From: Bythopirellula goksoeyrii
GTDB lineage: Bacteria > Planctomycetota > Planctomycetia > Pirellulales > Lacipirellulaceae
NCBI RefSeq assembly: GCF_008065115.1
Contig: NZ_CP042913.1
Coordinates: 3,157,827 to 3,221,826, forward strand
Direction: 5' to 3'
Length of the DNA stretch: 64,000 bases
The number at the start of each line of letters is the position of its first letter. Position 1 is the stretch's first letter. Of this stretch, positions 12,173 through 19,932 are shown piece by piece. Below the pieces are notes generated by a model. It was not told where the DNA came from. It searched no databases and was given only the letters and a program-made list of their open reading frames with translations. The position numbers and the translations under genes were made by a program.

Positions 12173-12994
12173 TCAACGTAGAGAGCGTTGGTTAAGGCCA
12201 TCAACTATGGGGGCATATAAGAACTCTACCAAGAACCAATTCTGTCCCAAAGCTTGAAAACGAAAAGGCTCATATCTACCTTCCAAGCCACTGTAATAGG
12301 CAAGAGGCTCAGTTTCCTGCGGCAACCTAGCCAATGTGGCTCCTTCGTTATTGCCTGTAAGTTGGAAATAGAGATCATTCTCAGTTCCACGTTCGATGGA
12401 GGAAACGTGGAGCGGATTGGATCTTTTTAACATCATCAGGGTGCGTGGCTTGCCAATAGGGTAAGCGTTGAACGGGCCGACATCTGGGAGAACTCCATCC
12501 TGGTTGGGCCAGTTCTTGAGCAGCGATTGGGCGACCTTTTCCATCGCAGGCAAGCTTGGAGCTACCCTCAGCGCTTGCGCGCGCCACGCGAGATCTGGCC
12601 ATGTTTCATAAAATGTCAGCCAGGCTGCCAGCGCAACCATGACTGCAAACCAAGATCGCAGTCTACGGTTGGAGTGCGCGCCGAAGAAAAGTGCTATGAC
12701 TATGCACCCTGCTGATACGAACCCAGCGATTATGGTCAAGTGTAGTAGCTGAATTCTAGAACTCAGATAATGAGTATGAGGTAGCTGAGTTATATCTAGG
12801 TTCGACGCTCCCTTGGGATCCACTAGGGCGAGCAGGCGAGCCGCTTGAGAAAACCTGCCATCCAGTCCAACCCAGATTATCAGCCCGACAAGTAGGGCAA
12901 GATTGAATATCCAATATGCCCACACCGCTTGTCGCGATAGCAATCCACTAGCCAAACGCTTGAGAGGGCCGGAAATGTTTATGTTGGTAGGCAT
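12173..12994 (-). CDS. Membrane protein of unknown function
   Basis: A 273-residue protein that I do not recognise. Three hydrophobic helices occupy the first half (near residues 27-44, 84-105 and 115-130), followed by a soluble C-terminal half rich in aromatic residues with AYPIGKPRTLMMLKRS and NWFLVEFLYAP. An in-frame ATG at 13018 exists but lies inside a 60-base palindromic repeat, so the ATG at 12994 is the more likely start. The protein has no catalytic signature that I can name. It stands alone on the minus strand. Confidence 0.6.
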   Translation of the reverse strand: MPTNINISGPLKRLASGLLSRQAVWAYWIFNLALLVGLIIWVGLDGRFSQAARLLALVDPKGASNLDITQLPHTHYLSSRIQLLHLTIIAGFVSAGCIVIALFFGAHSNRRLRSWFAVMVALAAWLTFYETWPDLAWRAQALRVAPSLPAMEKVAQSLLKNWPNQDGVLPDVGPFNAYPIGKPRTLMMLKRSNPLHVSSIERGTENDLYFQLTGNNEGATLARLPQETEPLAYYSGLEGRYEPFRFQALGQNWFLVEFLYAPIVDGLNQRSLR

Positions 12995-13012
12995 GGCATG
13001 CCGAGCGGAAAT

Positions 13013-13072
13013 TGTCATCCCGAGGTACTCCGAGGGATCTGGCCAGATTTCTCGGAGTACCTCGAAATGACA
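13013..13072. repeat. 60-base palindromic hairpin repeat
   Basis: Two 30-base arms, 13013-13042 and 13043-13072, are reverse complements with no loop spacer. The arms differ at only four places, and each difference keeps pairing in RNA by a G-U wobble. The arm starts TGTCATCCCGAGGTACTCCG. Hairpins of the type 'TGTCATCC.GAG' are dispersed in many bacterial genomes, so this is probably one copy of a REP-like family. Confidence 0.75.
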
Positions 13073-13121: not shown

Positions 13122-13391
13122 ATGGCCACTGTCCATTTTACCAGTCACTTGCAGGCGTTCGTCAACAGCGAACCGGTCGTTGTCGCGGCAAAGGATGTAG
13201 CCATGGCACTCGAAAATGCCTTTGAGGGTAGAGAACAGCTGCGAAGCTATGTGATGGACGAGCATGGACGCCTGCGGAGGCATATCATGCTTTTCGTCGA
13301 TGGTAAGATGGTCGAAGATCGCGTGAATTTGACTGATCCTGTAACGGAAGCATCTGAAGTGTATGTAATGCAGGCGCTTTCCGGGGGATGA
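13122..13391 (+). CDS. MoaD/ThiS-family small carrier protein
   Basis: An 89-residue protein with the beta-grasp layout of sulfur carriers and a C-terminal Gly-Gly (ALSGG). MoaD and ThiS are adenylated at this tail and then carry sulfur as thiocarboxylate. The core has a hydrophobic pattern like MoaD, including ALENAFEGREQLRSYVMDEHG, IMLFVDGK and EASEVYVMQALSGG. No moeB, moaE or thiG is nearby. Instead the next gene, 75 bases downstream on the same strand, encodes a BNR-propeller protein, a pairing I recall from other genomes but cannot check here. Its cargo and partner are unknown; it could serve sulfur transfer or act as a protein tag. Confidence 0.75.
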   Translation: MATVHFTSHLQAFVNSEPVVVAAKDVAMALENAFEGREQLRSYVMDEHGRLRRHIMLFVDGKMVEDRVNLTDPVTEASEVYVMQALSGG

Positions 13392-13466
13392 GGGAAAAAT
13401 GCGAAATGTGGAGTGTGGATTGCGGAATGTTTTGATCGACCAAACTTGAGGCGATAGATATATCTG

Positions 13467-14585
13467 ATGACTGGCACGATTCACGTTTCTACCCGGAAGG
13501 GGTTGTTTACGCTTGGGCGTTCGTCGACAGGGCAGTGGGAAACTGTCAATGTGTCGTTTCTTGGTTCTCCGCTGAGCATGTCACTGGCTGATCCTCGGGA
13601 TGGGAATTGGTATGCCGCGCTGAACCTGGGACACTTTGGTGCGCATCTGCATCGCAGCAGTGATCGAGGTGTTACGTGGACTGAGGTGGCTGCGCCGGTG
13701 TTTCCTGAGGGTGCGACGCTACCCGAGCGGATGGCAAGCGAGTCCGAGACGCCGAAAATGAAGCCGGCAGCGCTCTCAGAAATCTGGGCTTTGGAAGCTG
13801 CCAACACGGGGGACGGAACCTTATGGTGTGGCACGATTCCGGGGGGATTGTTTCGCAGCGACGACGCCGGTGATAGTTGGCAGTTGGTCGAGGGGCTGTG
13901 GAATCGCGAAGAGCGGATGAGTTGGTTCGGTGGCGGCAAAGACGATCCGGGGATTCATTCGATTGAGGTCGATCCGAACGATCCGCAGCATGTGCTGGTG
14001 GCGATTTCCTGCGGCGGTGTTTGGAGAACGCGAGATGGTGGCTCGACTTGGGAATGCTGCAGCAATGGACTTCGTGCCGAGTACATGCCCCCCGATCAGG
14101 CGTACGACCCGAACGCGCAAGACCCCCATCGTATGGTCGCCTGTCCAAGCGATTTCGATCATCTGTGGATCCAGCACCACAACGGCATCTTTCACTCAAC
14201 TGACAACAGCCAGAATTGGGAAGAAATTACCGATGTAGAACCCGCCGTTTTCGGCTTTGCGGTTGCTGTGCATCCTCATGAGCCAGGTACGGCGTGGTTC
14301 GTGCCCGGTGTGAAGGACGAAATGCGCGTACCGAAAGATGCAAATTTCGTTGTTACCAAAACCACCGATGGAGGGAAGAACTTCCGCCAGATTTCAGAGG
14401 GACTTCCTACCGAGGACGCTTACGATATTGTCCTACGTCATGCACTTGATATCGATCAAACGGGCAACCTGCTCGCCATGGGGAGTACGACGGGCAACGT
14501 TTGGGTATCGGAAGACAGCGGCGAGTCGTGGCAGGCCGTTTCTACCCACTTGCCGCCAGTGTACGCCGTTCGGTTTGTTGAGTGA
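13467..14585 (+). CDS. BNR/sialidase-type beta-propeller protein
   Basis: A 372-residue protein with repeated Asp-box motifs (SxDxGxTW): SSDRGVTW near residue 58, SDDAGDSW, TRDGGSTW, STDNSQNW, TTDGGKNF and SEDSGESW near the end. These define a BNR/VPS10-like propeller of about six blades. There is no signal peptide, which suggests it stays in the cytoplasm, unlike secreted sialidases, and the catalytic residues of true sialidases (arginine triad, FRIP) were not seen. I therefore call it a propeller of unknown activity. It follows the MoaD/ThiS-like gene and is probably in the same operon. Confidence 0.75.
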   Translation: MTGTIHVSTRKGLFTLGRSSTGQWETVNVSFLGSPLSMSLADPRDGNWYAALNLGHFGAHLHRSSDRGVTWTEVAAPVFPEGATLPERMASESETPKMKPAALSEIWALEAANTGDGTLWCGTIPGGLFRSDDAGDSWQLVEGLWNREERMSWFGGGKDDPGIHSIEVDPNDPQHVLVAISCGGVWRTRDGGSTWECCSNGLRAEYMPPDQAYDPNAQDPHRMVACPSDFDHLWIQHHNGIFHSTDNSQNWEEITDVEPAVFGFAVAVHPHEPGTAWFVPGVKDEMRVPKDANFVVTKTTDGGKNFRQISEGLPTEDAYDIVLRHALDIDQTGNLLAMGSTTGNVWVSEDSGESWQAVSTHLPPVYAVRFVE

Positions 14586-14595
14586 GGCGCCCGGT

Positions 14596-15234
14596 TCACT
14601 CTTCACTTCGTTCTACAAGTTCAGCAAACCGACGCCCGTAATCTGGATGGACAGCGGCCAGATGCGCAGCGATTTCCTCAACAGAGTCCGGATTTTCGCG
14701 GATCAACTCCACCACATCGGCTTCGTCGCGTAGGCGACCGGCGGCAAGTTTAAGTTCGATTAGTGCCGGCAATGAAATGTATGTAAGCATTCCCGGAGTT
14801 GCTCCCATGACCTGAGGATGAGAAATCGTGGTGGGGGCGGGGTGCTTGGCGGTGCCGGGGCGTCCTCCTTCGGGGAGAATATCGACTTCGATACCTGTTT
14901 CTCGATGGAGCAGTTTCGGCCAATTCCCGGTGGGTGTATTGAGTACATCGAATCCGCTGACCGCTGCCGTATGTAGAAAGTCATCAATGCGATTGCTCGG
15001 CAGAGCAATATCAATATCTTGCGTCACGCGACCAAGATAGCCGTGACGCCATACGGCCCATCCTCCTCCGACGACTGCTTCACACTGGCAGGCAATGAGG
15101 GCCTGATCGAGGGCCTTTACAACCCGACCGTATCGGCCAGGCAGATCTTGGGGCTCAAACATGTTTTGCCTCCCGACTAACAAGGCGTCGGCTATTTGCA
15201 GTTGTTCGGCAAGTAATTCGGTTGACAGGGGCAT
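14596..15234 (-). CDS. Nucleotidyltransferase-like protein
   Basis: A 212-residue protein with a minimal nucleotidyltransferase fold: GGWAVWRHGYLGRVTQDIDIAL (about 57-78) gives the GG...DxD pattern of AbiEii-type or DUF6036-type nucleotidyltransferases, and VDILPEGG supplies a third acidic residue. The C-terminal half is helical and ends with DEADVVELI, common in such proteins. AbiEii-type proteins can be toxins, but no antitoxin gene is adjacent; the next minus-strand gene encodes a secretion F protein. The start at 15234 is the longest; a later ATG at 15162 (MFEPQDLPGR) is possible. The function is not assigned. Confidence 0.65.
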   Translation of the reverse strand: MPLSTELLAEQLQIADALLVGRQNMFEPQDLPGRYGRVVKALDQALIACQCEAVVGGGWAVWRHGYLGRVTQDIDIALPSNRIDDFLHTAAVSGFDVLNTPTGNWPKLLHRETGIEVDILPEGGRPGTAKHPAPTTISHPQVMGATPGMLTYISLPALIELKLAAGRLRDEADVVELIRENPDSVEEIAAHLAAVHPDYGRRFAELVERSEE

Positions 15235-18534: not shown

Positions 18535-19659
18535 TCAAGATTTCTTATGCCGACGACCACCGCGACCGCGACCTCTCGATGAACCAGAACTTTGCCTTGC
18601 TGGTTGCTTGCTGCGCTGAGACAGATTCGTATCCACGATTACGCCAATAGCCTCATCCCAAGTGGGCAGATTGCGGTGGCTGGGACGGCTTCCCGTTGCC
18701 GAGGGGGAGCCATCGTCGTCCAACAACTCATCATCCAGATCATCATCGTCATCGTCATCATCCTCACCAAGCTGGGACGCTAGACGCTGTTTGATTCGAG
18801 AATCTTCTTCTTCAGGCGTCAATTCCTTATCGTCCTTCGAGCGGCCACGACCTCGGGATCGCCTCCGACGTCGACGCTTTTCAGGTGCGGCCTCATCTTT
18901 AGTGGTTTCTGAATCGGATGATTCCTCGCTGACAGTTTCCGAAGTTTCGTCGCCTTCTGCACCATCCTTGTTTTCTTCTTCAGAGCTTGTCCCGGTCTTA
19001 ACACCTCCGCGTCCACGGCCTCTGCCGCCTCGCCGCCGCCGACGTCGTCCTTTCTTTTGCTCGCCTTCGTCTTCATCATCTTCATCATCATCGGCGGATT
19101 TGTCGCTAATGTCTTCCGCAAAGACAGCCTCCTCCCCTTCAGTAAACAGAAAGGAGGACTCGACGTTCGTGCGCGCGGAGACAAAAGCACTCCCCCAAGA
19201 GGCTGCGTCAGCTGCGAACAAGGCATCGAAGGCACTGCGGGCGGCTTCACCGGAAATAGTTGGCGCCTCATTGGCTTCGTCTTCTGAATCGTCGGTTTGC
19301 TCTACGAACTCGGAGGAGTCGACGCGTACGGATTCGACTTCAATCTCGATCTTGGGTTCTTCGTCACGCGGCTTAAGTTCGGCGCGTGGCACAGCTGGAG
19401 CAGGTTTCTCGGTGCGACTGGCGGTAGGTTTTTTGACCGGTGGTTCTTCAGCAACGGGTGGCACATCGATCCCAAGCGAGGAAGCTAACCCTTCCCAGTC
19501 GCTGGGGGTCGCCTCAACCTCCTCAACCTGTTCGCGACGGCGGGTAGGAAGTTCCTTGGGGGGGGGCTGACGACGCTCCAAGGCATCATCGGTGACATTC
19601 ACACCAAGCTCGCCTACTAGTTCGTCCCAAGTGGATTTTTCTTCGTTTTCTTCACTCAT
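18535..19659 (-). CDS. Highly charged low-complexity protein
   Basis: A 374-residue protein that I cannot assign. Short ordered-looking pieces resembling each other (TWDELVGELGV near the start, DWEGLASSLGI at about 60, and TWDEAIGVIVD near 345) are separated by long disordered stretches of Glu/Asp and Arg, including RRRRRRGGRGRGRGG-type runs and an eight-residue Asp run. The C-terminus is Arg/Gly-rich (SSRGRGRGGRRHKKS). This composition recalls RNA-binding RNase E-like scaffolds, but no catalytic domain is present. The ATG at 19659 (MSEENEEKSTW) is preferred over an ATG 15 bases upstream, which has no signal before it. A repeat-based contribution to length is likely. Confidence 0.65.
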   Translation of the reverse strand: MSEENEEKSTWDELVGELGVNVTDDALERRQPPPKELPTRRREQVEEVEATPSDWEGLASSLGIDVPPVAEEPPVKKPTASRTEKPAPAVPRAELKPRDEEPKIEIEVESVRVDSSEFVEQTDDSEDEANEAPTISGEAARSAFDALFAADAASWGSAFVSARTNVESSFLFTEGEEAVFAEDISDKSADDDEDDEDEGEQKKGRRRRRRGGRGRGRGGVKTGTSSEEENKDGAEGDETSETVSEESSDSETTKDEAAPEKRRRRRRSRGRGRSKDDKELTPEEEDSRIKQRLASQLGEDDDDDDDDLDDELLDDDGSPSATGSRPSHRNLPTWDEAIGVIVDTNLSQRSKQPARQSSGSSRGRGRGGRRHKKS

Positions 19660-19932
19660 ATGTCTCTGTCGCATTAAGGAGGTTGTGGAGATCGCATTTC
19701 TCTTGGGAATTTAGTGCTGGAAGCGATTCTCCTTGGAAGTGCAATATACGGTTAAATCGTGAGTGCGCGAAGATGCAGTCGTGGGACAGCCATCTTGGCG
19801 GACATGCACTACAAATACAGGCTGCAAGTCTCTACACCACGACGCGACTTGGGCTCCCCTAGAATTTGCAGTGGGGATAGACTTTATAGCTAGTCTGCTA
19901 GCCATTCTGAACCACGCAAATCGAGTGACACC

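Follow-up and report, generated by a model that had tools for sequence, protein, structure and literature searches.

The 64,000-nucleotide window analysed here, from the complete 6.47-Mb genome of Bythopirellula goksoeyrii, encodes a small beta-grasp protein with a Gly-Gly end directly upstream of a predicted seven-bladed Asp-box propeller, and this pair of genes is kept side by side across phyla. The carrier gene (positions 13122-13391, forward strand) encodes an 89-residue protein resembling ThiS, MoaD, CysO and SAMP1 with the C-terminal residues ALSGG. The propeller gene (13467-14585, forward strand, 372 amino acids) encodes a relative of the solved protein 3b7f. A sequence-only reading of the window had described a Gly-Gly-ending beta-grasp protein 75 bases before a propeller with six Asp-box motifs and no signal peptide. 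We confirmed this arrangement at the above coordinates, located the six motifs at residues 64, 131, 188, 244, 299 and 348, and saw no hydrophobic N-terminal segment in the propeller, judged on hydropathy only. We hypothesize, at about an even chance, that the pair is a dedicated two-component enzyme in which a charged carrier tail works at an Asp/Cys/Sec-His pocket of the propeller.

Of 59 near genomes, own genome included, 32 had propeller relatives with E-values of 0.001 or lower, the weakest of these matches being other Asp-box proteins. A first set of 146 loci was assembled from near genomes (30), plasmid records (6), the best 80 of a one-genome-per-species scan and a phylum sample (30); L001 is the window's own locus, and L002 and L089 are the same place. 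In 141 of these loci a carrier-like gene adjoined the propeller gene and shared its strand, upstream in 102 and downstream in 39, with a median gap of 41 bases and a largest gap of 782. The upstream arrangement belongs to one lineage, the downstream one to others. A later Acidobacteriota sample gave a carrier beside the propeller in 29 of 30 loci (L157 had none), always downstream, for a combined adjacency of 170/176. Since the neighbour was kept in 141/146 loci, the pairing is not a chance one, and because gene order switched at least three times on a tree of 112 propellers, the adjacency has outlived rearrangement. Neighbourhood conservation, which the sequence-only reading had proposed as a check, thus came out in favour of the pair. 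Five first-set propellers had no adjoining carrier: those of Streptomyces (L033), Rhodobacter (L034) and Haladaptatus (L035), L135, and L109, where the contig ends at the gene. The carrier-less propeller of Rhodobacter sp. CZR27, of Cys type, lies beside the ergothioneine genes egtB and egtD (L034, 3586-7113), and the distant propeller of Haladaptatus is directly preceded by an annotated DoxX-family protein (L035, 5567-6960).

An all-against-all comparison of flanking open reading frames (83 and 59 loci) revealed no third partner gene common across groups, and E1, CysM and JAMM genes were absent among the recurring neighbours. The neighbours that did recur were lineage-bound: a LysR-like protein beside Burkholderia copies and, in some Planctomycetota, upstream proteins named by eye as DoxX-like and SRPBCC-like, the DoxX-like protein being upstream of the propeller in L014, L016, L022, L023 and L024. 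A defence-system reading was rejected, with no PADLOC match at E 0.01. In the window, three long reverse-strand frames near the pair (12173-13018, 14596-15234 and 18535-19674) had no Pfam match at E 0.001. A 60-base inverted repeat (13013-13072) of two 30-base arms, 87% complementary and with an RNA fold z-score of -7.5, precedes the carrier gene by about 50 bases; it is a dispersed palindromic element with 57 match rows in its own genome, both palindrome strands counted.

Automatic names would make the pair chance neighbours, the one a carrier for molybdopterin or thiamin and the other a sialidase-like glycosidase: in Pseudomonas aeruginosa the two are annotated 'MoaD/ThiS family protein' and 'exo-alpha-sialidase', and MoaE occurs in 49/50 pair-bearing genomes of other groups. 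We consider this very improbable and largely contradicted already, by the adjacency in 170/176 loci and by the carriers of the window's own genome. Whole-genome search found two ThiS-family genes over cut-off, both outside the window. One, MoaD-like and at 2344115, directly precedes the genome's single MoaE at 2344371 (G000:C1:2344115-2344706), 0.8 Mb from the window pair, and the second lies at 5016122. Because the genome's own MoaD-MoaE pair and another ThiS lie elsewhere, the window carrier is a third, separate carrier of the genome. The same search placed no ThiF, MoaE or above-threshold ThiS match inside the window, in agreement with the earlier statement that no thiocarboxylation or molybdopterin gene is nearby, and the ordinary molybdopterin carrier that the sequence-only reading had weighed as the alternative did not appear, MoaE being partnered by another MoaD-like gene. 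The window pair resembles MoaD-MoaE molybdopterin synthase in placing a Gly-Gly beta-grasp carrier beside a partner enzyme, but that partner is unrelated to MoaE. A molybdopterin link of the pair was also discarded on distribution, as MoaE was near universal in the searched genomes with or without the pair.

The supply of an activating enzyme was examined in the same genomes. The window's genome has one full-length ThiF/MoeB-type gene at 2569600 and two weaker matches. E1-type ThiF genes were found in 49/50 pair-bearing genomes of other groups, the exception being the draft genome G302, and a pair-bearing relative, the draft G045, had no ThiF over cut-off. Among 42 relatives with or without the pair, ThiF was over cut-off in 41 and MoaE likewise in 41. 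As both are equally common regardless of the pair, activation in trans is possible rather than indicated. In one relative, two ThiF-type genes flank a ThiS-family gene (G049:C4:1642909-1644673, L117), a carrier system different from the window pair.

We next consider the carrier itself, which ends in VMQALSGG. Its match to Pfam ThiS (19.0 bits) fell below the 22.5 cut-off and its best NCBIfam match, SAMP1 (35.1 bits), below the cut-off of 60, and no moaD (TIGR01682) match reached E 1. A PDB search with a profile built from 40 relatives matched 4n6e_B (E 5.7e-12), CysO (3dwg_C, E 6.8e-11) and also solved SAMP1 chains. The Gly-Gly, encoded at 13383-13388 on the forward strand, was kept in 140/140 complete first-set carriers, each time within A-x-[SAT]-G-G, and formed the exact C-terminus in 131 of them, with extra residues after it in 9. 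In the later set it was present in 29/29 carriers, at the exact end in 21 and followed by further residues in 8. Short extensions ranged from 1 to 65 residues. Longer carrier open frames continue past the Gly-Gly into another sequence: LMWPc (arsenate-reductase-like) in L124 (755-1537) and L125 (2608-3315), DinB_2 in L130 (2563-3426) and a TypA-like GTPase sequence, named by eye, in L160. Such extended carriers could be genuine fusions, precursors or the result of errors in the sequence. With residues and joined frames after the Gly-Gly, a free tail becomes less certain, and the carrier may still be read as a modifier.

In that reading, which we regard as unlikely, the carrier is a SAMP-like ubiquitin-like modifier and the propeller its processing or deconjugating enzyme or adaptor, with the Asp/Cys/Sec-His pocket trimming after Gly-Gly or releasing conjugates. 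JAMM enzymes such as Mec+ trim or deconjugate in other systems. SAMP1 as best NCBIfam match, though below the 60-bit family cut-off, and the likeness of the extended carriers to precursors speak for a modifier, with conjugation as a candidate role. However, the 131/140 first-set carriers that end at Gly-Gly need no trimming and still keep their propeller, and cysteine-type proteases do not usually have Asp instead of their Cys. CysO, a charged carrier that works with a dedicated partner, is among the nearest solved relatives of the window carrier and shares its Gly-Gly tail. The CysO-CysM(-Mec+) system differs in that the window partner is a propeller and not a PLP enzyme, with no CysM or JAMM gene recurring beside the pair.

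The propeller gave Pfam matches to Sortilin-Vps10 and BNR. Folded alone, it was predicted with high confidence (pLDDT 95.8, pTM 0.93), and the strands of the model fall, by our count, into seven groups. Its best solved match, and the only close one, was 3b7f, with Z 49.4 over 350 residues, against only Z 28.7 for GH74; the absence of a family from such match lists does not exclude that family. 3b7f (33% identity) also matched the propeller family profile at E 1.2e-109, with full-length homology, its His and Arg residues in the corresponding positions and Asp at position 219. It is described as a putative glycosyl hydrolase with BNR repeats (Reut_B4987, 'YP_299179.1 family'), seven-bladed and with its function listed as not known; the available part of that description reports no carrier with this member of the window propeller's family (PMC2716378). 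GH33 sialidases have a six-bladed catalytic propeller (PMC2716378) whereas the window model has seven strand groups, which speaks further against a sialidase that neighbours a carrier by chance. GH74 xyloglucanases carry two propellers of seven blades each (PMC2716378), with the active site between them, whereas the window protein, at 372 residues, is a single propeller. The nearest propeller outside the window's genome is that of Bythopirellula polymerisocia (88% identity). Another genome of the same order (G043) has 23 propeller-matched places, most of them in open frames of about 780-1280 codons; these large Asp-box proteins form an expanded group apart from the paired propeller family.

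Alignment of 147 propellers revealed a near-invariant set of residues, H164, S181, H221, Q236, H238 and R324, each kept in 144-146 rows. Their codons in the window, all on the forward strand, include those of His164 (13956-13958, 145/147 rows), His221 (14127-14129, 146/147), His238 (14178-14180, 145/147) and Arg324 (14436-14438, 144/147). Among them lies position 219 (14121-14123, forward strand), Asp in the window protein, which varies in a restricted manner: 99 rows have Asp, 39 have Cys, 8 have an in-frame TGA and 1 has a gap. In the 30 later loci the seven pocket positions all read H-S-C-H-Q-H-R. A site that accepts Asp, Cys or Sec could serve as a metal ligand or as a nucleophile. For Asp-box propellers, the top face is the advised place to look for functional residues (PMC2716378). 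In the propeller model, inner strands begin at or next to H164 and residues 219-221 and 262-264, and H238 directly follows a second strand; from this strand order these residues would sit on the top face. Cys182 was considered as a substitute nucleophile in the Asp type and rejected, being Cys in only 74/99 Asp rows.

The eight TGA codons are all in Planctomycetota loci and all at column 219, in the context [GY]-[QST]-U-VHK and aligned with the Cys of homologues. The genomes that carry them encode tRNA-Sec in 8/8 cases (65.7-75.2 bits, over the gathering score) and SelB over cut-off in 7/8, G203 having only a 199.7-bit match; for comparison, tRNA-Sec exceeded 60 bits, a line of our own choosing, in 13/21 other genomes searched. 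TGA and non-TGA interchanged at least five times on the propeller tree, and Asp and Cys/Sec at least twice. The full-length matches listed for 297 Acidobacteriota genomes had no internal stop, an argument against the TGA codons being sequencing errors. Hairpins fold downstream of the TGA, with 60-nt z-scores (-1.5 to 0.3) that overlap those of 39 Cys homologues. On these sequence grounds the eight TGA relatives, the window protein not being one of them, are probably selenoproteins, with good but not complete support. As with known prokaryotic selenoproteins, the TGA aligns with a homologue's Cys in genomes with Sec machinery; unlike them, the propeller site has no UxxC or CxxU motif. Table 1 of PMC13188914 lists 119 known prokaryotic selenoprotein families, with no propeller, BNR or sialidase entry among them.

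Tail and pocket appeared to vary together. Carriers had AL[ST]GG in 96/96 Asp rows with a carrier and in 0/43 complete Cys/Sec rows, and an Asp group on the Cys/Sec side of the tree (L146, L147) also fits this coupling. Against it, a later locus (L184) combines a Cys pocket with an ALSGG tail. Because the tree offers one or two independent pairs and L184 is an exception, this coupling is a hint only.

The two genes share a reading frame, and reading through two stops gives one chain of 487 residues. AlphaFold2 predicted this joint chain at pLDDT 92.0 and pTM 0.90, where a pTM near 0.75 would be expected if the 89-residue carrier were unplaced (our own estimate). By that comparison the carrier seems confidently placed in the model. 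From residue 88 to 115, a stretch that covers the Gly-Gly and the artificial linker, pLDDT was below 50, the tail being tied to the linker. A confident joint fold would also suit an uncharged carrier that forms part of a propeller metalloenzyme as a structural subunit or as its lid, its Gly-Gly a slim tail fitting the channel and the metal bound by three His and Asp/Cys/Sec. The residues H164, H221 and H238 with D/C/U219 do resemble a metal site, and E1 genes are never in the operon among recurring neighbours. We nevertheless find this account rather doubtful, as activated carriers keep their Gly-Gly end no more strictly than this one does and the carrier's closest solved relatives include the charged CysO.

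In the two-component enzyme that we favour, a shared E1-like adenylyltransferase encoded elsewhere would activate the carrier's C-terminal glycine and leave a thiocarboxylate on it, as for MoaD, ThiS and CysO. The carrier would then dock on the seven-bladed propeller, as structure prediction supports. Conservation suggests that its tail could reach the central channel at its mouth; there H164, H221, H238, Q236 and R324 with Asp/Cys/Sec 219 would form the active site. Like MoaE with MoaD or CysM with CysO, the propeller may put the carrier-bound sulfur on a small molecule or resolve a product that the carrier holds. Same-strand adjacency in both gene orders, the strict Gly-Gly, the near-invariant pocket, TGA together with Sec machinery, E1 genes in the genomes, the joint fold and the likeness to CysO argue for such an enzyme. 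Against it stand the lack of an E1 in the operon and of ThiF in G045 and G302, the extended carriers, the tail pLDDT below 50, the five propellers without a carrier and the lack of a known substrate. Of the earlier suggestion that a sulfur carrier or tag works with a cytoplasmic propeller, the link across phyla and the separation from the molybdopterin carrier held, while the cytoplasmic setting and a charged or conjugated state are presumed. The near-invariant pocket, the Asp/Cys/Sec position and the solved relative 3b7f are additions to that earlier reading.

No description of the carrier-propeller pair or of a Sec propeller was found in openly licensed literature, in agreement with the earlier view that the pair would be new; ThiS is poorly searchable as a gene name. 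By term, the pair was not found in the available text of PMC1779556 and PMC1949818, nor the Sec propeller in that of PMC13188914, PMC12013277, PMC2398784 and PMC9312934. A carrier with a partner enzyme is a known kind of system; a propeller partner with an Asp/Cys/Sec site is apparently undescribed as far as our searches reach. The pair could be an undescribed carrier-dependent family, to which we give somewhat less than an even chance, whose activated Gly-Gly beta-grasp protein delivers sulfur or another group to the central channel of a seven-bladed propeller, at a site that has switched between Asp, Cys and Sec. If so, we know of no earlier propeller-fold partner for a MoaD/ThiS-type carrier and of no earlier selenoenzyme family with a beta-propeller fold, and the product or modification made by the pair would be one not yet known. 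The pair is present in workable bacteria (Pseudomonas, Burkholderia, Cupriavidus), where automatic names hide it, and it offers a direct handle of one pocket, one tail and one partner. The Asp/Cys/Sec exchange points to where the active site probably lies in a family for which a structure, but no function, has been available since 2007. A charged carrier would open a new branch of thiocarboxylate chemistry, and a modifier a new branch of bacterial ubiquitin-like biology.
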